DNA of 35,637 bases, from the IMG/VR virus record IMGVR_UViG_3300031700_000004, positions 1 to 35,637 of that record; one strand, written 5' to 3'. This document shows, piece after piece, positions 1 through 35,637 of the stretch. This DNA comes from a virus. How positions within the stretch are numbered: the stretch's first letter is position 1; each line of letters begins with the position of its first letter. Both the position numbers and the translations under genes were made by a program. The notes under the pieces were generated by a model, which worked only from the letters and a program-made list of their open reading frames with translations, did no database searches and was not told the origin of the DNA.

Positions 1-215
1 GCAGTTGCACCAGCAAGCGCAAAATGGTGGTTTGCAAGCCCCAATCCCGCCAACACGGGAGTTATTTGAAAGTGACCCAATTGGTTACATGGAAGAAAAG
101 CTCAAGTATGACGAGGGTAAGGCACAATACGACCAAAATATGTACCAACTTCAGAATGTGCAAAATCAGCGCGCGCAGGCTCAACAAGCGGCTCACCAAG
201 CCTACCTTCAAGAGC
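1..215. repeat. Terminal redundancy, left copy (circular closure)
   Basis: These 215 bases match 35423-35637 except at two positions: base 85 is T here and G at 35507, and base 88 is C here and T at 35510. Both changes are silent (Gly and Tyr codons of the scaffold gene). The repeat lies inside one open frame that continues across the join. It is therefore best read as the overlap of a circularly closed assembly of a mixed population, not as a physical terminal repeat. Confidence 0.9.
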
Positions 216-3159: not shown

Positions 3160-3545
3160 TGTTTCAAACTTTACTAGGCCCAATTGCAAATATCGTCGGG
3201 AGCATCGTAAATGGTAAGATGGAGCAGAAGGCCGCCGAAACTAAAGTCAAGATTGCGAAAGCTGAAGCTCAAGCCCAGATCATGCTGTCACAGGCCACCT
3301 CTGAGGCCGATTGGGAAAAGGTCATGGCAGAAGGGTCACGCGATAGCTGGAAAGATGAGTGGCTTACCGTGTTGTTTTCAGTGCCTTTAATTCTAGCATT
3401 CTTCGGTGAATGGGGCCGGGTCATCGTAGCCCAAGGCTTTGCCGCGCTGGATGTTATGCCAAGCTGGTATCAATACACGCTTGGCGTAATCGTAAGCGCC
3501 AGCTTTGGCGTTAGGTCTGCAACTAAATTTTTTGGGAAGAAATGA
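3159..3545 (+). CDS. Probable holin (3TM/GTA-holin-like)
   Basis: This 128-residue protein has a helical N-terminal half rich in Lys, Glu and Gln. Hydrophobic segments follow at about residues 67-84 (LTVLFSVPLILAFFGEW region) and 103-122, and the N-terminus itself is hydrophobic. The WKDEWLTVLFSVPLI...WYQYTLGVIV...FG layout is characteristic of the three-segment holin family found in gene transfer agents and many phages. It would form the inner-membrane lesion that frees the endolysin. The endolysin starts 2 bp downstream, which strongly supports the call. A strong ribosome site (AAGGAGG) precedes the ATG. Confidence 0.8.
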   Translation: MFQTLLGPIANIVGSIVNGKMEQKAAETKVKIAKAEAQAQIMLSQATSEADWEKVMAEGSRDSWKDEWLTVLFSVPLILAFFGEWGRVIVAQGFAALDVMPSWYQYTLGVIVSASFGVRSATKFFGKK

Positions 3546-3546
3546 C

Positions 3547-4170
3547 ATGAGCGACGCAATGAAAAACCTGCAAGCCAAAATCAGCGTTGGCGCTGATGGT
3601 GCGTTTGGGCCAAATACTGCTAAAGCCATCGCCAAGCATTTCAACCTGTCGCCTGAACGTGGCGCGCATCTTATGGGGCAAGCTCACCATGAAAGCGGTG
3701 GCTTTAAGCGTACCCGTGAGGGGCTGCATTATTCAACGCCGGAACGGATCATGGCTGTGTGGCCGTCGCGCTTCCCTACCGTTGACAGTGCCAAGCCATA
3801 TGCGCGCAATCCGTCAGGTCTGGCCAACAAGGTTTACGCTGACCGCATGGGCAACGGCAATCAGGCATCGTGCGAAGGCTCGCTATATTGTGGCAGAGGC
3901 TTTCTGCAACTCACAGGCAAATCAAATTATCGCAGCTTTGCATCCGACATGGGCATCCCCGAAGTTATGACCGATCCGGACCTAGTTGCCAGCACATACG
4001 CGTTTGAGACTGCTCTGTGGTTTTTCCGCACCAATGGCTTGTTTAAAATAGCTGAGACGGGTGTTGATGAGGAGACGATCCGCAAAATCACTAAACGCGT
4101 CAACGGTGGCTATCACGGTCTTGATGATCGGATTGAGCAAACCAATCAAATCTATGGATGGCTTAGCTAG
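3547..4170 (+). CDS. Endolysin, GH19 (chitinase-fold) muramidase/lysozyme
   Basis: This 207-residue lysin is predicted to cut peptidoglycan glycan strands. The GH19 signature is clear: HHESGGF with the proposed catalytic Glu at residue 49, and the family motif YCGRGFLQLTGKSNY at about residues 114-128. The first 35 residues (VGADGAFGPNTAKAIAKHF) resemble a truncated peptidoglycan-binding repeat. No signal peptide is present, so release through the holin is expected. The ATG at 3547 follows GGGAAG. An in-frame ATG at 3505 lies inside the holin gene and is not favoured. Fold-family assignment is confident; the exact bond cleaved is not shown. Confidence 0.92.
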   Translation: MSDAMKNLQAKISVGADGAFGPNTAKAIAKHFNLSPERGAHLMGQAHHESGGFKRTREGLHYSTPERIMAVWPSRFPTVDSAKPYARNPSGLANKVYADRMGNGNQASCEGSLYCGRGFLQLTGKSNYRSFASDMGIPEVMTDPDLVASTYAFETALWFFRTNGLFKIAETGVDEETIRKITKRVNGGYHGLDDRIEQTNQIYGWLS

Positions 4171-4181
4171 GCTAGCCAACC

Positions 4182-4556
4182 TTGCAGGATCAAGCCGCAA
4201 GCGCAAATGTCGGAAGGGCGGGAGAATATCTCGCCCTGTCTCAGTTGTCCCTCGCTGGCTATTTCTGCACCCTTGCGCCTTCGCAGGACCATGACGCGTA
4301 TATACAGATGGATACACGCATACTGACTTTGCAGGTCAAGACGTCATCAAAAATCAGGCACCAGAAATATCAATTCTTCACTAAGCAAAGCGAAATCCGG
4401 CAGAGGTCTGACGTTTACGCATTCGTGTCGATGGACCTTAATAAGATTTTCTTCTGCCGTGGAGATGACCCAATAATCAGGCCAAGCTCAACGCACTTGG
4501 ATGCTGAATTATTTGAGCCGGGTAGTATGCAAGAAGTTTTATCTTCGTTCGATTGA
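4182..4556 (+). CDS. PD-(D/E)XK-like small nuclease
   Basis: This 124-residue protein has the layout of the restriction-endonuclease fold: a helix with Glu15 (GRAGEYLALS), an acidic residue at Asp38 (DHDAY), then strands leading to LQVKTSSK (Gln51, Lys53). The Gln in place of Asp/Glu before Lys occurs in some active members but could mean altered activity. It is the last gene of the rightward operon, 11 bp after the endolysin. The only start available after the upstream in-frame stop is TTG at 4182, with no good ribosome site, so translation may depend on coupling. Host-DNA degradation, homing or packaging help are possible and cannot be separated here. Confidence 0.72.
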   Translation: MQDQAASANVGRAGEYLALSQLSLAGYFCTLAPSQDHDAYIQMDTRILTLQVKTSSKIRHQKYQFFTKQSEIRQRSDVYAFVSMDLNKIFFCRGDDPIIRPSSTHLDAELFEPGSMQEVLSSFD

Positions 4557-4568
4557 TTTGGCTTTGCT

Positions 4569-4590
4569 AAGTAATATCGCAGTATTACTT
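4569..4590. terminator. AT-rich palindrome at the convergent operon junction
   Basis: There is a perfect 8-bp inverted repeat, AAGTAATA (4569-4576) with TATTACTT (4583-4590), and a 6-base loop. It lies between the end of the rightward late operon (4556) and the end of the leftward early operon (4630). It is symmetric, as a bidirectional stop would be. The stem is AT-rich and lacks a long T tail, so termination strength is uncertain. Confidence 0.5.
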
Positions 4591-4629
4591 GTCTCTCTAA
4601 AATATACCTAAGTGCGCCCCCAGTATCTT

Positions 4630-4854
4630 TTAACTATTCGGCCTCGCCAATGGCCGGATGCTGCTTGACGGCATGTCAGTTCGCTCACATTGCGCCATGC
4701 TGTCTCTGGATTGCGACAGGATGACGGGATAGATTGCATCAATGGCCACTGAACATGTCTGCATGTCCTTGAAGTAGACAGTTGACGTGGCCTCATAGGA
4801 GGTAACGCCACTGTTTACGGTGTATGTCAGTATTAGTGCTGCCCAGTAAGTCAT
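4630..4854 (-). CDS. Small membrane or exported protein, end of early operon
   Basis: This 74-residue protein has a short hydrophobic N-terminus (MTYWAALILTYTV) that could be a signal or anchor. Two cysteines (about residues 34 and 56) lie in a helical, polar remainder. Its ATG overlaps the stop of the upstream regulator gene (ATGA), which is the main evidence for translation. No family is recognised with confidence. It is the last gene of the leftward operon, 40 bp from the palindrome at the junction. Confidence 0.62.
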   Translation of the reverse strand: MTYWAALILTYTVNSGVTSYEATSTVYFKDMQTCSVAIDAIYPVILSQSRDSMAQCERTDMPSSSIRPLARPNS

Positions 4855-5615
4855 CGTTCATCCTCAAATGGTGAATGGAATGCCTCGATAGGCTGCTTGC
4901 AGAACACCCAGCGCCATTGCGGCTTAGTCTGGTCCTTGATTTCCACATAATCGCGCACCCGGTGTATTTTTTCAGCTAAAACCAATTTCTTCAAATAGCT
5001 GGCTGTGCGTGGGATACTATCCCCAAGCAACTCAGCGGCGTCCGCTACGGTAACGCGCTGGTCATCGCTCAGCATGCCGATAAGTTTCTCACCTTGCGCT
5101 ATGCCATACGCCTTACGCCTGCTAGCTATTTCAAGCGCGCCCTTGTGCATCGTGCTTTGCCGTGGCTTCATCGACGGCAATGGCCCACGGTTTTTTAGTT
5201 TGTATTGCAGCCGCTCAAACTCAAGAATGCAATGGCCGTAAGTTATCTCGTATCGCTTATACTTGTCAGTGACGCCCTGAAGGCTTGCCTTTAGTCTGCC
5301 TTCGGGAGAGCGTTTAAAGCGGATTTCAGCCTCTCTAGCAGCACGCTCTGCTCCTGTAGCCTCTGCTGCAAGTTTGGCCTCTTCAAGGTGTTCGGCTCGC
5401 TCAGCATGATCGAGTTCACTCTCTCGAGCCTCCGGATATACTTCATTATTTTTTCCATGCCTTACCTTTCTGGCTAAAGTTATACCTAATTTTTTTGCGA
5501 TGCGGTGGACCGTTGAATTGGAAATGTGCAGCAATTCTGCAATCTCGCCCTGACACATATTCATCTCAGCGCACTTGATGAGATGATCTATTGTGGCGTC
5601 TGAAGTCTTGGTCAT
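4851..5615 (-). CDS. Two-HTH DNA-binding protein, probable transcription regulator
   Basis: This 254-residue protein has a helix-turn-helix at about residues 20-45 (MCQGEIAELLHISNSTVHRIAKKLG), similar to those of resolvases and Trp-repressor-like proteins. A charged Glu/Arg/Ala helix follows (about 65-115), and a second, winged-helix-like domain lies at about 185-226 (VTVADAAELLGD...TASYLKKLVLAEKIHRV). The start at 5615 has a strong GGAGGAAG site and overlaps the preceding stop; an upstream in-frame ATG at 5657 lacks one. It is near the end of the early operon, so it may switch on the late promoter or shut off early genes. That role is inference. Confidence 0.78.
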   Translation of the reverse strand: MTKTSDATIDHLIKCAEMNMCQGEIAELLHISNSTVHRIAKKLGITLARKVRHGKNNEVYPEARESELDHAERAEHLEEAKLAAEATGAERAAREAEIRFKRSPEGRLKASLQGVTDKYKRYEITYGHCILEFERLQYKLKNRGPLPSMKPRQSTMHKGALEIASRRKAYGIAQGEKLIGMLSDDQRVTVADAAELLGDSIPRTASYLKKLVLAEKIHRVRDYVEIKDQTKPQWRWVFCKQPIEAFHSPFEDER

Positions 5616-5779
5616 TCGTCTTCCTCCATAGGCTCTACTTGGCCTGTTCCTGCGCAATTATCGCATTCAGTTGTTTCTGTGTCTGGAAAGCCATAATCAT
5701 TGTTAAGGCTTTGCGTGACAAACGTCTCGCGTTCCTGTGATCCAGTGCCATTGCACTCAGGGCAATCAATCCATTCCAT
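5612..5779 (-). CDS. 55-residue twin zinc-knuckle (DnaJ-like) microprotein
   Basis: This small gene sits exactly between two others: its ATG overlaps the HNH gene stop by one base (TAATG) and its stop overlaps the regulator start (ATGA). The product starts MEWIDCPECNGTGSQ and carries two CxxCxGxG motifs, CPECNGTG at about residues 6-13 and CDNCAGTG at about 39-46. This is the metal-binding repeat of the DnaJ cysteine-rich domain, here free of any J domain. The rest is acidic. Such mini-proteins probably bind one zinc through the paired motifs. The function is unknown; a chaperone-cofactor or partner-binding role is plausible. Confidence 0.82.
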   Translation of the reverse strand: MEWIDCPECNGTGSQERETFVTQSLNNDYGFPDTETTECDNCAGTGQVEPMEEDE

Positions 5780-6081
5780 TACTCTTCTCCTTTAGCTGCA
5801 TCTATGTGGTGTTTGTTTGCGTAAGTGTGGATGGCGTGGCAGTTGGCGCACAACACCTCACACTTTTCCATTTCGGCCACGACGTTTTTCATTACGCCTT
5901 TACTGGCTAACTTTGAAACACTCATAACCTTATCTGAAGGGTCCAAGTGGTTAAAATGTAAAGCCACAGGATGCTCAGCGTAGCCGCAGCGATTGCAGCC
6001 TGCATTAATTTTAAAATTGTCTACAAATGCCCTAATTTTTGCCGCGCGCTCGACGGCCAATTGCTGCGCCCTGCTACGCAT
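5779..6081 (-). CDS. HNH endonuclease
   Basis: This 100-residue protein has a canonical zinc-stabilised HNH fold: CNRC at residues 29-32, the HFNHLDP core (His42, Asn44, His45) and CANCHAIH at 78-85. The metal-binding cysteines are all present. The N-terminus is basic (SRAQQLAVERAAKIRAF). It overlaps the primase stop by one base (TAATG) and the next start by one base, so it belongs to the replication operon. Phage HNH proteins of this size act as homing endonucleases, packaging nickases or host-DNA cutters. Location away from the terminase, with no interrupted neighbour gene, makes replication or homing more likely than packaging. Confidence 0.88.
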   Translation of the reverse strand: MRSRAQQLAVERAAKIRAFVDNFKINAGCNRCGYAEHPVALHFNHLDPSDKVMSVSKLASKGVMKNVVAEMEKCEVLCANCHAIHTYANKHHIDAAKGEE

Positions 6082-7982
6082 TACGAAACATCCTTACATT
6101 TACCGTCTTTATCAGTGAACCAAACGAAACCCTCGTTCTGCACCAAATGTCCTGCGCCAATCAACGCTTCAATAGACTGCTTATATGTAGAGCGCGGATT
6201 TGCCACTGAGGACACTTTGCCAACAAAGTGATCCTTCACTGTCTCCTCAGAGATAACCCAAAAGGTGCGTGGCTCAGGCCAGCCGGGGCCACCCGGATTT
6301 GGATTGCCTATGCCCTCGCCGCGCAATTGCGTAAACACCTTGCGAATAAGCAACTGGTTCTTGCCCTTGATGCGTGGCTTGTTAGCTTCCTCAATCTCAC
6401 TGTCTGACGCCTTGTGGATGGTACAGGTTGTTACAGCATCGCCGTCCTCATCTATGCCAAGCTCAATCACGTTTAGCTTGAACGAGAATAGCGTACCCGT
6501 CTCCATGTCGCGCTGCTTGGTTGCCCTTGCCGTGCGCATCCCCGTGACTTCATCGTGGTCTAACTCAATCTCTGTGTCGGTTGCCGCGCGTAAACTTGAG
6601 TGGCCGCGCGCTCCCGCTGCTTTATCTTTTCCGGAGTGATGCACCACTGCCAAGCTGGCACTTGTTATCTCGCGCAGCTTATCGCAGTTGCCAATAAACT
6701 TGGTCATGTCTTCCGGGGAGTTTTCATTGCCGCCAGCCATAGATCGGCTGAGCGTGTCCACAACAATAAACTTAACTTGTCCGTGCTTGCGCGACACCTC
6801 ACGGCATAGCTTTTCCAATATAACCATGTCCACGTCGCCATCAAGCAAGTTTACCGGCAAAGGTCTAACGGCAAGCTTAACGTCCTTGTGTTCAGGGTAC
6901 TGTCGGCTGAGAGCCACAACCCGGTTGTGCATGCCCATGCCGCCTTCTGTGGCGAGATACAAAACTGATCCGCCAATGACTTTATGGCCGTTCCATTCCT
7001 GCCCGGCAGCAATATGCCAAGCCATGTCTAAAGCAAAGAATGACTTGCCCACGTTGGACGGGCCATAGATCACAGACATCTGCCCGTCGCCCAACCAGCC
7101 CTTAACAAGGTAGTTGCGGCTGAGTTGCGGTATTGCCTCACCCGGCATGAAGATTTGATCCATCACGCTTTGCACTGTCAGCGCCTTGCGTGTCGCATCA
7201 GGGCCTTGGTTGACCCACATGTCGGAATAGTCCCAGCCATCATTCTCAGGCATGATGTACTCAACGCCCAACTCAGAGAATGCGCGCTCACACTCTTTGC
7301 GGCCAGCGTCGTCATTATCCCCGGCAATAACAAATTCTGTGTCGGGCTTAGCTTGTTGCAGGTTGTCTACAACCGCCAAGATATTGCCAGCGTTCAGTGC
7401 GAAGACGCAGGGCTTCCCTGTGGCTTCATGCACTGTGGCAGAGGTTGCCCAGCCCTCTGCGATATATGCAAAATCACGAATAGGCCCACCAATCACACTA
7501 AAGTTACCGATCACCGGGAGCTGGTAGGAGAATTTCTTCTTGCCATCTGCGTCGATAAACTGCGCGCCAACGCGCTTGCCCTTCACGTCAATGATTGGGA
7601 TTGCCAATGTGTCGCCGTCAATCTTGGCGTTGTGAAGCTTCAGGCGCTTCTTTTCGAGATACGGGTGACTGCTCATAGCGTCACGCTCAGGCCATTCAAC
7701 ATCTCGTCTCACCTCCACTGTCGGCGTGTGTCCCGGCTGTGGCCAGAGTGACATATCGCGCAGCCTATCCTTGATTGATTTATAGTCGTTGCACTTGCGG
7801 CAATTGACCATAACTTCGCCTTGAAATTCTTTAATCCAAAATCTGTCTGTGCCTGAACAAGATGGGCATGGGCCATGAAACTCGCCTTGCGACGTTTTCT
7901 TTAGCTCAAGATTGCTAATAATTGTTTGACCAAATTCGCTCCAACGTGCGTTTGGAAACTTGCTCTGTGTTAAGACTTTCAT
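6081..7982 (-). CDS. TOPRIM primase-helicase fusion (RepA/AAA_25-type)
   Basis: This 633-residue protein is the likely core of replication. In order: a zinc ribbon (Cys39, Cys42, Cys61, Cys64), a TOPRIM catalytic domain (IAEGWATS with Glu176; GDNDDAG at 221-227), and a RecA-like helicase (Walker A GPSNVGKS at 307-314; Walker B FIVVDT with Asp409; VVHHSGKD at 447-454). It would prime and unwind the fork as a hexamer, like T7 gp4 but with a RepA-like ATPase. The start at 7982 is chosen because AAGGA lies 8 bases upstream. An in-frame ATG at 8054 falls in a hairpin and lacks a ribosome site. No polymerase gene accompanies it. Confidence 0.93.
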   Translation of the reverse strand: MKVLTQSKFPNARWSEFGQTIISNLELKKTSQGEFHGPCPSCSGTDRFWIKEFQGEVMVNCRKCNDYKSIKDRLRDMSLWPQPGHTPTVEVRRDVEWPERDAMSSHPYLEKKRLKLHNAKIDGDTLAIPIIDVKGKRVGAQFIDADGKKKFSYQLPVIGNFSVIGGPIRDFAYIAEGWATSATVHEATGKPCVFALNAGNILAVVDNLQQAKPDTEFVIAGDNDDAGRKECERAFSELGVEYIMPENDGWDYSDMWVNQGPDATRKALTVQSVMDQIFMPGEAIPQLSRNYLVKGWLGDGQMSVIYGPSNVGKSFFALDMAWHIAAGQEWNGHKVIGGSVLYLATEGGMGMHNRVVALSRQYPEHKDVKLAVRPLPVNLLDGDVDMVILEKLCREVSRKHGQVKFIVVDTLSRSMAGGNENSPEDMTKFIGNCDKLREITSASLAVVHHSGKDKAAGARGHSSLRAATDTEIELDHDEVTGMRTARATKQRDMETGTLFSFKLNVIELGIDEDGDAVTTCTIHKASDSEIEEANKPRIKGKNQLLIRKVFTQLRGEGIGNPNPGGPGWPEPRTFWVISEETVKDHFVGKVSSVANPRSTYKQSIEALIGAGHLVQNEGFVWFTDKDGKCKDVS

Positions 7983-8018
7983 TATATGTTTCCTTACTAA
8001 CTGCCTAGTGGCTCCAGA

Positions 8019-8087
8019 TTTATGCCCCGGTGTTAACTGAACCCGCCGGGGCATAAGTTCTTAGACTTGACACCGTGTCGTGTCTAA
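8019..8087 (-). promoter_or_regulatory. Two dyads between SSB and primase-helicase genes
   Basis: The first dyad is a perfect 11-bp inverted repeat, TTATGCCCCGG (8020-8030) with CCGGGGCATAA (8046-8056) and a 15-base spacer. The second spans 8061-8087: 13-base arms matching at 11 positions around one central base, overlapping the SSB stop codon. Neither is followed by a T run on the minus strand. An mRNA structure that limits read-through, a processing site, or an operator for differential SSB/helicase expression would fit. Confidence 0.65.
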
Positions 8088-9961: not shown

Positions 9962-10492
9962 CTAAACCACCTCGATAAAGTTATCGGCTTTTTCAGCCCA
10001 CAGGATAAACGTGAATTGCTTATCATTGGCTGAGCCATAAACTTCAGCCTTGGCAATCTTTCCAGCGGTAAACAAACGCATTGCGCTATTTCCTACGGCC
10101 TTTTCACCAAGCCCGGCTTGCTGGGCAAGCTCCTGAGTGGAATAATATCCACCAAACTGGATCAGCTTTAAAATCTCACTGTCAACTTGAGAGCGCGTCA
10201 AATCATCATCTCCATCGTAAAACTCATTTAAATGTTCGGCGTCACGAACCGCCACAACTTGATTAATAGGCACATCTTTTCCGCTATATAAACGCACCGC
10301 CTGCCACGGCGTACCGCGAGCTGACTTGTCGGCAAAATTAGGAACCAGCAAAGCTTTAATCTTATCGCCGGGTTGTAGGGTGTAGCCCTCAGCTACATGG
10401 ATCGGGATAAAAACTTGCTCGTTGCTTATCGTATCGCAGGCAAAGCAAAATCCGTGAGGATGCGAGTTCGTGATAATAATAGTGTTTTCCAT
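9962..10492 (-). CDS. Predicted OB-fold plus winged-helix early protein
   Basis: This 176-residue protein looks two-domain. Residues 1-70 are beta-rich and resemble a cold-shock/OB barrel (GFCFACD, EQVFIPIHVAEGYTLQPGDK, KALLVPN: alternating strands with a typical QPGDKI turn). Residues about 103-165 read as a winged helix (QVDSEILKLIQFGGYYSTQE, LAQQAGLGEKAVGNSAMRLF, then a two-strand wing). An acidic linker (YDGDDDL) joins them. The start at 10492 follows AGGAAGAG; an upstream in-frame ATG at 10588 lies inside the neighbour gene. A nucleic-acid-binding regulator or replication adaptor is likely, but no named family is recognised. Confidence 0.75.
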   Translation of the reverse strand: MENTIIITNSHPHGFCFACDTISNEQVFIPIHVAEGYTLQPGDKIKALLVPNFADKSARGTPWQAVRLYSGKDVPINQVVAVRDAEHLNEFYDGDDDLTRSQVDSEILKLIQFGGYYSTQELAQQAGLGEKAVGNSAMRLFTAGKIAKAEVYGSANDKQFTFILWAEKADNFIEVV

Positions 10493-12183: not shown

Positions 12184-12311
12184 GTTAATCTCCATTGTTT
12201 GTGTTTCGTCCCTAAGTATTCGCATAAATAAAAGATATGCACAACACCTAATTCACTTGAAGTACATATTTTTAATATATATAAGTAAAACAACAGAAAA
12301 AGGAGAATATC
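12184..12311. promoter_or_regulatory. Divergent early control region
   Basis: This 128-bp AT-rich gap separates the leftward operon from the rightward regulator gene. It holds a good rightward promoter (12257-12285). For the leftward operon only weak candidates are visible, for example TTGTGC, an 18-base spacer and AATACT on the minus strand. A small dyad, ACTT-G-AAGT, overlaps the rightward -35 box. Its position suits an operator bound by the ribbon-helix-helix protein encoded just downstream; that binding is inferred. Confidence 0.7.
12257..12285 (+). promoter_or_regulatory. Sigma-70-type promoter for the RHH-RuvC group
   Basis: TTGAAG (12257-12262), a 17-base AT-rich spacer and TATAAG (12280-12285). 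Expected transcription start near 12292, giving a leader of about 20 bases that carries the AAGGAG ribosome site of the next gene. Confidence 0.68.
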
Positions 12312-12473
12312 ATGGGCGACAAGAAACGTTTAATTCAATTTAGTGATATAGCGGATAAAGCTATTTCAGATGCAGCGCTGAAACTTGGGCTGAGTTTCAG
12401 CGCGTTTTGCCGTAGCGCTGCGCTAGAAAAGGCCAGCACTATAGTAGAGCCTAAACAACCGGCAGTAGATTAA
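12312..12473 (+). CDS. Ribbon-helix-helix (Arc/CopG-like) regulator, 53 residues
   Basis: This small gene is missed by length cut-offs but well supported: AAGGAG 6 bases before the ATG, a promoter just upstream, and a stop overlapping the RuvC start (TAATG). The product reads MGDKKRLIQFSDIADKAISD, then ALKLGLSFSAFCRSAALEKA. A short basic strand (KKRLIQFS) is followed by two helices with a central turn, the Arc/MetJ/CopG fold that binds operators as a dimer through the strand. It sits in the divergent region and probably represses its own and/or the leftward promoter. The fold call is by pattern; the target is inferred. Confidence 0.78.
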   Translation: MGDKKRLIQFSDIADKAISDAALKLGLSFSAFCRSAALEKASTIVEPKQPAVD

Positions 12474-12943
12474 TGCTGATATATGGATGCGACCCCGGTT
12501 TCACGGGTGCAATCGCGCTATATTGGACTGATACGGGCAAGCTAGAAGTCCACGATATGCCGGTAATGAAGAATACAAAAGGTAAGGCGATTATCAATTC
12601 TCCTTACCTTTTGGACATCCTGCAAAATGAAGCAGATGAAAAGTGCATGTGCTTATTGGAGCAGGTGTCGGCCATGCCGGGTCAAGGTGTGTCTAGTATG
12701 TTCCGCTTCGGCGAAGGCTACGGCATGCTGCAAATGGCATGCGCGGCAAACAAGCTGCCAACGCAGTTTGTGACGGCTGCAAAATGGAAAGGATACTTTG
12801 GATTAAACCGGGATAAAGGTGTAAGCCGGGGCTTGGCTATGCAGCGCTTTCCAGAATATGCCGGGCTATTTAGCCGGGTAAAAGACGATGGAAGGGCCGA
12901 AGCGGCTCTGATTGCGCTTTACGCGGCAGAGAATATGGTTTGA
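12473..12943 (+). CDS. RuvC-like Holliday junction resolvase
   Basis: This 156-residue protein has the RNase H-like fold of RuvC-type resolvases. The first strand carries Asp7 (IYGCDPGFTGAIAL), the second acidic residue is Glu63 (CLLEQVSAMPGQG), and the C-terminal pair is Asp138/139 with Glu143 in KDDGRAEAALIALYAAENM. All four acidic positions are present. The length is near that of bacterial RuvC. It would clear branched DNA before packaging. It is translationally coupled to the RHH regulator and is followed by the AT-rich iteron region. Confidence 0.92.
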   Translation: MLIYGCDPGFTGAIALYWTDTGKLEVHDMPVMKNTKGKAIINSPYLLDILQNEADEKCMCLLEQVSAMPGQGVSSMFRFGEGYGMLQMACAANKLPTQFVTAAKWKGYFGLNRDKGVSRGLAMQRFPEYAGLFSRVKDDGRAEAALIALYAAENMV

Positions 12944-12962
12944 GGGTTTTGGGTGGGATTAT

Positions 12963-13055
12963 TAATTGTATTAATTGTCTTTGATAAATTAATACAATTA
13001 CTTTCAATGGTTTAGGGTTTGCGATTAATACAATTACTGATTATTAATACAAATT
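12963..13055. repeat. Iteron-like repeats (TTAATACAATTA), candidate origin
   Basis: A 12-bp unit TTAATACAATTA occurs exactly at 12989-13000 and 13025-13036 and, inverted, at 12963-12974. A fourth copy at 13044-13055 keeps the first nine bases. Shorter relatives continue at 13073-13113 within the adjoining palindrome. The 190-bp gap that holds them is very AT-rich and non-coding. Iterated binding sites beside an AT-rich stretch are the classic form of an initiator-dependent origin. An operator array for the RHH protein is the main alternative. Confidence 0.7.
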
Positions 13056-13075
13056 GGCCTATTCTTAGTATTTTG

Positions 13076-13118
13076 TATTATTAATACTATTTACCTTTAG
13101 GTAATAGTATTAATAATA
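13076..13118. repeat. 43-bp palindrome (19-bp arms)
   Basis: The left arm (13076-13095) pairs with the right arm (13100-13118) over 19 bp with a single unpaired T and a 4-base loop (TTTA). The arms contain the iteron core (TTAATACTA with TAGTATTAA), so the palindrome is itself two inverted iteron half-sites. It is AT-rich and lacks a T tail, so a terminator role for the RuvC gene is less likely than an origin or cruciform element or an operator for the next gene. Confidence 0.75.
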
Positions 13119-13133
13119 AATACGAAGGCGGAA

Positions 13134-13400
13134 ATGATGAATAAAGAAAAAGTTTGGGCTTGGGTTTTGCAGGAAATAGAAAGGGGCCGGGCGTTTGTCA
13201 GTCCTGCTGGCTCTCATGATGTGCCGGAGCCTATGCACTCGTTTGAAGATAGGTTGAACGCTTGTAAAGACATCGGCGAGCTGGAGGGTTTTGCAAACCG
13301 CCGGAAATTTGATCCAAGCCAACCAAGCTGGACGTTGGACGAACGCAACGCAATCTTGCGGCGCAAAATGGAAATGCAAAACAAAAGGAAGAAAAAATGA
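13134..13400 (+). CDS. Small protein of unknown function
   Basis: This 88-residue basic protein starts MMNKEKVWAWVLQEIERGRA and ends in a Lys/Arg-rich helix (RNAILRRKMEMQNKRKKK), suggesting nucleic-acid contact. No family is recognised. AAGG lies 5 bases before the first ATG; a second ATG follows immediately at 13137. It directly follows the iteron and palindrome region, and its stop overlaps the next start (ATGA). If the repeats are an origin, this would be a natural candidate for a small origin-binding accessory, but that is positional inference only. Confidence 0.7.
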   Translation: MMNKEKVWAWVLQEIERGRAFVSPAGSHDVPEPMHSFEDRLNACKDIGELEGFANRRKFDPSQPSWTLDERNAILRRKMEMQNKRKKK

Positions 13401-17850: not shown

Positions 17851-18804
17851 ATGGGCATTTTTGATTTTTTAGCTACCGACAAGCAAATGGGTCGCCGTAA
17901 GAAGAAGTACGACCCGGATGATACATCTGATTTGGGCCTTGGCGGTTTAAAGTCTTTGCTTGGCACACGGGGCGCTGCTTCTAAAGATGCTCGCGGTGAT
18001 GCTATGATGTCTCAAACCGCAAATGATAAGCTGCCGGGTTATTTTAATCCAGAAACGCGCGAATATGTGCCGTGGTACGTTGATTTGTTTGACGGCGGCG
18101 GATTGAACCAGTCTGAGGGTTTGCTTGGCAAGGACGCGCAAGAGATACCAACTGCTGTCGGCTTGCTTGAAACTAATGGCGCACCCGTTCAGCGTGCGGC
18201 TCAGATGGCTCCGGGTATTGGTACTCAGCTTTCCGATATGGAGCGATTAAATCGTATGCCGGGCGTTGATCCACGTAATTTGGGTGGCGCTGAGGGTTAC
18301 GGTCCTATGGGCGTTGATCCACGTAATTTAGGTGGAGCTGAAGGTTATGGTCCTATGGGCGTTGATCCATATGGTAACTGGTCTGGAAATGAAGCTGGTA
18401 TGGGCGGAGGCGAAGTTATCTCTAACAGCCAAATGAACCAAGAAATGTATGGTTATGACTACCCAACTGAATTTAAGCTAGGCGCTGAGCCATCATCTCT
18501 ATTAAGTGTAGACCAGCCAATTTTTTCCGGCGAAGAAAAAGATGGTTTTATGGAACTTTCCCAACCGTCTGACCGTGCCATTCAGCGCAACATGCCAGCA
18601 TACCCTGCACAGGTTGCTGGGGTTGTCGGCACAGATGCTATGACGGGCAGGCAAGTAAATCCAATATCCCAAGCTAATGCGGCCGAGTTTCAAAGGTTTC
18701 GGGCGAAATTTGAGGATCTTCTTAGGCGCAATGGCCAATGGGGTTTCCTTGATAGGGAGGCGGATGCGTTTCAGGCTTTAAAAGCAAGTGGACAAAATTA
18801 CTAA
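17851..18804 (+). CDS. Putative virion protein with an internal tandem repeat
   Basis: This 317-residue protein is not recognised. It begins MGIFDFLATDKQMGRRKKKY. The middle is Gly/Met/Asn-rich and disordered-looking, including two perfect copies of a 16-residue unit (GVDPRNLGGAEGYGPM) and a truncated third. The C-terminus is a helical, charged domain (RFRAKFEDLLRRNGQWGFLD). It has the best ribosome site of the late operon (TAGGAGG) and lies between terminase and adaptor. A minor structural or ejected protein is the most likely role, inferred from composition and place. Confidence 0.75.
   Translation: MGIFDFLATDKQMGRRKKKYDPDDTSDLGLGGLKSLLGTRGAASKDARGDAMMSQTANDKLPGYFNPETREYVPWYVDLFDGGGLNQSEGLLGKDAQEIPTAVGLLETNGAPVQRAAQMAPGIGTQLSDMERLNRMPGVDPRNLGGAEGYGPMGVDPRNLGGAEGYGPMGVDPYGNWSGNEAGMGGGEVISNSQMNQEMYGYDYPTEFKLGAEPSSLLSVDQPIFSGEEKDGFMELSQPSDRAIQRNMPAYPAQVAGVVGTDAMTGRQVNPISQANAAEFQRFRAKFEDLLRRNGQWGFLDREADAFQALKASGQNY
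18262..18357 (+). repeat. 48-bp in-frame tandem repeat
   Basis: Two adjacent 48-bp units (18262-18309, 18310-18357) encode the same 16 residues with only a few silent changes. A third begins at 18358 and diverges after about 12 bp. The silent differences show the duplication is not brand new and that the peptide has been kept. Confidence 0.9.
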
Positions 18805-35009: not shown

Positions 35010-35637
35010 ATGGAATCGACTACCCTAGACGCAGCAGTAGAAAGCCTGTTGGCACCCTCAGAAAATAATTCTGGCGGAGATAATCTTGATGAAGCCGTAA
35101 ACTCAATGATTGAGCCTGATGACGATCAATCTGAAGAAGTTGAGCTTGCAGACGAAGATCAAGATGACGTTGAGGCATCCAGCGACGATGATTATGATGA
35201 TGCCGAAATTGACGACGAAGACCTAGTAGAAGCACCGGCTGAAGACACCAACCTTATCTCCGTCAAAGTTGACGGCAAGGAAGAGCGATGGACACTGGAT
35301 CAGTTAAAGCAATCTGCTGCGGGACAAGCGGCAATTAATAAGCGGTTTCAAGAAGTTGCTGAAGCGCGAAAGCAAATTCAGCAACATGCAGCCGCATTGC
35401 AACAGCAACAGCAACAAGTCATGCAGTTGCACCAGCAAGCGCAAAATGGTGGTTTGCAAGCCCCAATCCCGCCAACACGGGAGTTATTTGAAAGTGACCC
35501 AATTGGGTATATGGAAGAAAAGCTCAAGTATGACGAGGGTAAGGCACAATACGACCAAAATATGTACCAACTTCAGAATGTGCAAAATCAGCGCGCGCAG
35601 GCTCAACAAGCGGCTCACCAAGCCTACCTTCAAGAGC
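35010..35637 (+). CDS. Scaffold (capsid assembly) protein, 5' part
   Basis: The frame starts at ATG 35010 with AGAGGAAG about 9 bases upstream and runs off the window after 209 codons. It continues at base 2 of the window through the terminal overlap, for about 325 residues in all. This half begins METTT-like (MESTTLDAAVESLLAPSENN) and is extremely acidic, with dozens of Asp/Glu over about residues 25-80. It then turns to SVKVDGKEERWTLDQLKQSA, AGQAAINKRFQEVAEARKQI and a poly-Gln coiled coil. An acidic front half with a basic tail is typical of scaffolds. Confidence 0.86.
   Translation, partial: MESTTLDAAVESLLAPSENNSGGDNLDEAVNSMIEPDDDQSEEVELADEDQDDVEASSDDDYDDAEIDDEDLVEAPAEDTNLISVKVDGKEERWTLDQLKQSAAGQAAINKRFQEVAEARKQIQQHAAALQQQQQQVMQLHQQAQNGGLQAPIPPTRELFESDPIGYMEEKLKYDEGKAQYDQNMYQLQNVQNQRAQAQQAAHQAYLQE
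35423..35637. repeat. Terminal redundancy, right copy
   Basis: Matches bases 1-215 except at 35507 and 35510 (both third-codon, silent). Trimming one copy gives a circular genome of 35,422 bp. Confidence 0.9.

Follow-up and report, generated by a model that had tools for sequence, protein, structure and literature searches.

The AT-rich gap at positions 12944-13133 of the window (the whole 35,637-nucleotide stretch of viral DNA that was analyzed) is probably, at a likelihood of about 0.8 judging from sequence comparisons, a replication origin bound by the self-loading primase-helicase of this marine phage itself. To our knowledge, few replication origins have been identified in polymerase-less phages; in the present case, both the putative origin and its predicted reader are recognizable from sequence alone in about 100 contigs and in cultured Roseobacter phages. 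The gap has a GC content of 25% and, as is typical of iteron origins, consists of noncoding DNA with several short direct repeats. Three exact copies of a 12-mer, one of them inverted, and a fourth, partial copy had been reported in the initial annotation, and all four are present among the following features of the gap:

12957-12976, minus strand: left iteron block of two inverted units (TATTAATTG TATTAATTG); nearly all relatives have two inverted units in this position
12963-12974, minus strand (inverted): exact copy of the 12-mer TTAATACAATTA
12989-13000, plus strand: exact copy of TTAATACAATTA
13002-13023, plus strand: putative conserved origin core TTTCAATGGTTTAGGGTTTGCG, common to arrays with unrelated iterons
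13025-13036, plus strand: exact copy of TTAATACAATTA
13044-13055, plus strand: partial iteron TTAATACAAATT, with 2 mismatches to TTAATACAATTA
13076-13118, no strand assigned: palindrome, a hairpin core (TACC TTTA GGTA) with iteron half-sites on either side; many relatives have equivalents that differ in stem sequence
13081-13092: partial copy of TTAATACAATTA with 2 mismatches
13102-13113, minus strand: partial copy of TTAATACAATTA with 1 mismatch

With at most 2 mismatches allowed, TTAATACAATTA has 12 matches in the whole window versus 3.4 expected, a number reached by none of 100 shuffles. The 43-bp palindrome was also correctly recognized at first, and the 19-bp arms ascribed to it are approximately right: 16 perfect outer pairs, compared to a longest arm of 11 bp among 200 shuffles of the gap, are followed by a TACC/GGTA inner stem shifted by one extra T. 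Chance repeats in AT-rich spacer DNA, or a transcription terminator, would suit the low GC content but have a negligible probability, because just 2 of 1000 shuffles of the gap itself that preserved dinucleotides had three copies of a 12-mer, no terminator-like site was found in the gap, and the layout is kept in many loci. A search of the gap for Rfam families found none, the sole sub-threshold match being to a miRNA family (E = 0.08).

A search of IMG/VR with the RuvC-like protein encoded upstream of the array identified 55 loci, and in nearly all of those that reach far enough (about 50 relatives) the DNA 3' of the RuvC gene is organized alike: two inverted units come first, then a short conserved core, then direct units (three to four, with a period of about 9-10 bp), and finally a palindrome with a central hairpin. 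Conservation of the 12-mer in relatives had been suggested as a check: the repeats are not absent from close relatives, where the architecture of the array is kept although its letters differ. The unit sequence varies between phages and is nearly uniform inside each array (TTAATAC mixed with TTCATAC, TTCATAC with TTATTAC, TTATGAT alone, TTAGTAT, and others), such that all units switch together, a concerted change that requires a DNA-binding partner changing alongside. The short core, which the initial annotation did not include, is TCAATGGTTTA in the window (13004-13014), between the left and right repeat blocks, and TCAATGGGTTA in relatives, with the consensus TCAATGG(G/T)TTA; it was found with at most one mismatch in 25 of 62 unique arrays and in no shuffled array. 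Being common to arrays with unrelated iterons, the core must serve some common function, and it is conceivably a site of strand opening (unwinding) or primer start.

The genes relevant to the identity of the DNA-binding partner are the following:

6081-8054, minus strand: Toprim primase/RepA-type helicase, the proposed initiator (Pfam Toprim_3 and AAA_25; match to RSF1010 RepA, 1g8y)
6084-6413, minus strand: predicted C-terminal winged-helix domain of the primase-helicase, residues 548-657 (AlphaFold; Foldseek matches to winged-helix folds with E above 0.001)
6186-6200, minus strand: predicted start of the recognition helix, N619-P620-R621-S622-T623, the residues that covary with the iterons
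12312-12473, plus strand: ribbon-helix-helix (RHH) protein, excluded as specificity reader
12473-12943, plus strand: RuvC-like resolvase (PHROG 1770), upstream of the array, which does not track the iteron type
13134-13400, plus strand: small protein, encoded just 3' of the array in both of the gene arrangements described below

Each neighboring protein family was compared between array types and then, as a control, on the same genomes. In the same-clade test, comprising five genomes with TTATGAT arrays and six with TTAATAC arrays, seven residues of the primase-helicase separate the array types, and all seven are located inside nine positions near the C terminus (GKVSSAANPRST versus GKVTTASNKSQV, that is, SSxAxPRST versus TTxSxKSQV). 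The other testable proteins have no separating column, except for one C-terminal residue of RuvC that is written by the DNA of the array itself. Between loci L028 and L009, 80 of approximately 1900 bases differ, and 26 of the 80 fall in two 60-base bins that cover the recognition helix. The changes of iteron type number at least five on a tree of the primase-helicase core versus nine on a tree of RHH plus RuvC, and the sites of the array and the recognition helix are about 7 kb apart with recombining genes between them. Four well-supported independent switches in the tested clade are all concordant, for which a sign test alone gives p = 0.125. Among 67 unique loci, the distances between helices and between iterons are correlated (r = 0.66), with a partial r of 0.43 after removal of rest-of-domain divergence that was matched in 0 of 999 permutations, in a Mantel test that removes shared ancestry in part, not fully. 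An unsupervised scan of all columns ranked R621 best (0.48), followed by S622 and N619. The AlphaFold model built with 26 sequences (pLDDT of 89.6 for the C-terminal 110 residues) has the order helix-strand-helix-helix-strand-strand with a third helix that starts at P620, and thereby places the covarying residues where the recognition helix of a C-terminal winged helix begins; Foldseek with this domain returned weak, generic winged-helix matches, none of them below E = 0.001. The helix tips and the repeats with which they occur are:

NPRS(T/V): TTAATAC/TTCATAC/TTATTAC
NPRSS: TTTATAC
NHRSA: TTCATAC
NPSSI: TTAGTAT
NKSQV: TTATGAT
NP(S/T/A)QT: TATTAGT-like
NPHST: TAATAGT
NPDSA and NKTSA: TTTGTAG
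xPQQT: ACGG/ACCG-containing
NKRST: TTCCGAC

The primase-helicase is most likely, on this covariation, the protein that reads the repeats. Of the three initiator candidates named at the outset, it is the one singled out, and the OB/winged-helix protein (encoded at 9962) and the protein encoded at 13134 are eliminated as specificity readers, since near-identical copies of each accompany different iterons. RuvC, SSB, the exonuclease, both terminase subunits and others were rejected for having no separating columns. DUF6378 was rejected as well: it has six separating columns, yet these are unclustered, come from a comparison of only four versus four sequences, and lie outside the same-clade set. 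It is very improbable that the RHH protein encoded two genes upstream uses the array as an operator or centromere-like site; RHH proteins bind short repeats and the gene is close, but the sequence of the repeats does not track that of the RHH protein, which is identical in L013 (TTAATAC) and L019 (TTATGAT) and has no column that separates the types. A packaging or resolution site for the terminase small subunit or the RuvC-like resolvase is equally improbable. Phages carry packaging sites in repeats, and the palindrome adjoins the gene of a Holliday-junction resolvase, but neither the terminase small subunit nor RuvC tracks the iteron type, and several relatives offer a better candidate packaging site, a separate array of different repeats that precedes the gene for the terminase small subunit (L195:5240-5560, L127:4440-4710, L193:4560-4790, L189:4990-5240). 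These second arrays were considered as possible counter-examples and set aside on account of their separate location before the terminase small-subunit gene. The same terminase-upstream region of L158 (9650-9770) contains CTAATA units like that phage's own iterons.

Searches of IMG/VR with the C-terminal domain of the primase-helicase produced 79, 80 and 80 locus entries, which overlap, and also found the cultured Roseobacter phages CRP-811, CRP-821, CRP-823 and CRP-831; in all, more than 100 related phage sequences were compared, mostly metagenomic contigs. Relatives were sought in cellular genomes and plasmids, and none were found. In distant relatives, including the four cultured phages, the array is located directly 3' of the primase-helicase gene, whereas in the clade of the window it is 7 kb away from that gene, behind RuvC. 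The arrays of some relatives are weak by the k-mer criterion, and the k-mer label TAGCGAA of one KPQQT locus was rejected as an iteron because it is a coding repeat within the downstream gene. In 62 locus entries, not all from different contigs, a homolog of the 13134 protein is encoded 144-695 nt past the primase-helicase stop codon; it is beside the array in both arrangements, and so the array and the 13134 gene stay together. The 13134 protein is possibly an accessory factor. In the window, an HNH-like gene (5779-6081) abuts the stop codon of the primase-helicase gene, where distant relatives have the array, and this gene may be a trace of the event that displaced the array. An alternative in which the primase-helicase binds the array as an operator, autoregulating the 13134 operon or the replication genes, rather than as a replication start, is unlikely, although less so than any other alternative considered here. 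The array is immediately upstream of the 13134 gene, in relatives these remain neighbors, and promoter-like matches within the array are weak and not above chance. Against the operator, the array of relatives is downstream of the primase-helicase gene and not in its promoter; the sequence of inverted block, core, direct block and hairpin is an origin-like layout; and a primase-helicase as reader points to replication.

The reading of the gap as an iteron origin, put forward initially, is upheld as far as the repeats, the conserved architecture and the covarying primase-helicase are concerned, and its origin activity, like binding, ring assembly, unwinding and priming, is inferred from these. 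With the recognition helix of the C-terminal winged helix as its point of contact, the primase-helicase would bind iterons of about 9-10 bp; RepA-type rings, probably one for each repeat block, would assemble around the core and unwind it; the primase-helicase would prime and a host polymerase would extend. The palindrome would supply extra iteron half-sites, and the hairpin between them may serve to load or prime the second strand. Cumulative GC skew, which had been expected to change at the array, has its minimum at 12256-12295, a divergent gene junction. In CRP-831 and CRP-811 the skew likewise turns at the divergent junction (8.7 and 9.0 kb, respectively) and not at the arrays, which are at about 3.9 and 4.4 kb of their records; thus, the skew follows gene orientation and neither supports nor excludes an origin.

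The proposed initiator combines features of several known systems. The alpha protein of bacteriophage P4 unites primase, helicase and C-terminal winged-helix origin binding in one polypeptide, and the primase-helicase of the window resembles it in having a primase, a helicase and a predicted C-terminal winged helix in one chain. P4 alpha relies on an SF3 helicase, and its ori and crr are distinct sites; the window protein instead matches AAA_25 and RSF1010 RepA, no sequence match to the solved P4 alpha domain was found, and P4 alpha is not among the Foldseek matches listed. The RSF1010 replicon employs a RepA helicase, a RepB primase and an iteron-binding RepC, with iterons and hairpins at its origin. 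The likeness extends to iterons with a hairpin and to the helicase domain (residues 323-486 match RepA 1g8y, E = 2.9e-7), but the three separate proteins of RSF1010 correspond to one fused protein here, and no RepC was identified. The Rep of SaPIs and the Cch2 of SCCmec, self-loading initiator helicases with a C-terminal DNA-binding domain as is proposed here, bind through that domain to iterons directly downstream of their own genes (PMC7581432). The iterons are likewise directly 3' of the helicase gene in most distant relatives of the window, but not in the window itself, where the HNH-like gene occupies that place and the origin is behind RuvC. The helicases of SaPI Rep and Cch2 are of the DUF927 or D5/Primase_Cterm kind, and the primases of SaPIs are of the AEP type (PMC7581432), in contrast to the Toprim primase fused to an RSF1010 RepA-type helicase here, to which Pfam assigns Toprim_3 and AAA_25. 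In PLE, the satellites of Vibrio cholerae, a RepA domain and the origin covary and replicate only as matched pairs, and diversification of the origin has been tied to attack by an origin-directed nuclease (PMC8263062). The predicted DNA-binding domain and the iterons described here also covary and are swapped as a pair, a specificity that is experimental in PLE; PLE differs in being a satellite rather than a tailed phage, with a RepA_N-type initiator, semi-palindromic iterons of about 30 bp, and no helicase or primase. Similarly, the iterons of close relatives among geminiviruses differ and match residues in the iteron-related domain of Rep (PMC12548392 and references), but these are rolling-circle single-stranded DNA viruses of plants with an unrelated protein.

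Initiators matched to their iterons, and covariation of the two, are already known (SaPI, P4, PLE, geminiviruses); what is new is that a single chain combines a Toprim primase with a RepA-type helicase and a winged helix, how far this arrangement has spread among marine tailed phages, and how large the natural recognition series is. A search of the open-access literature found no earlier report of the system, and iterons go unmentioned where the cultured CRP phages are described (PMC12629253). CRP-831, CRP-811, CRP-823 and CRP-821 (L136-L138, L255) differ in their structural genes (tape measure, major tail protein) and possess the same cassette of primase-helicase and array, and so the replicon moves between phage types. 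A broader proposal, offered at even odds, is that many marine tailed phages carry a portable replicon cassette in which the fused Toprim primase/RepA-type helicase/winged helix is its own initiator and a helix tip of three to five residues is exchanged together with the iteron array, even across a distance of 7 kb. The outcome would be a protein-DNA code that can be read and a set of replication incompatibility groups, with origin-targeting rivals as a conceivable driving force. The roughly 20 natural recognition-helix tips, most of them with a legible iteron array, constitute a data set for a winged-helix DNA recognition code, and the phages offer a testable system for why origins diversify, as demonstrated for the PLE satellites facing an origin-directed nuclease (PMC8263062).

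Three other repeats were noted. In L256 (MW202879.1), the repeats GGAGATACC and TCGAAGATACC are located 3' of a repA gene (3301-5508, minus strand) whose RepA-like product differs in its C terminus; the phage has a related terminase, and L256 is possibly an independent instance of the layout in which the repeats follow the gene. The ORF at 17851-18804 in the structural region of the window contains an in-frame tandem repeat, GPMGVDPRNLGGAEGY, at about 18261. The two ends of the window (1-215 and 35423-35637) overlap by 215 bp with 2 mismatches, and the genome is therefore probably complete and either circular or terminally repeated.
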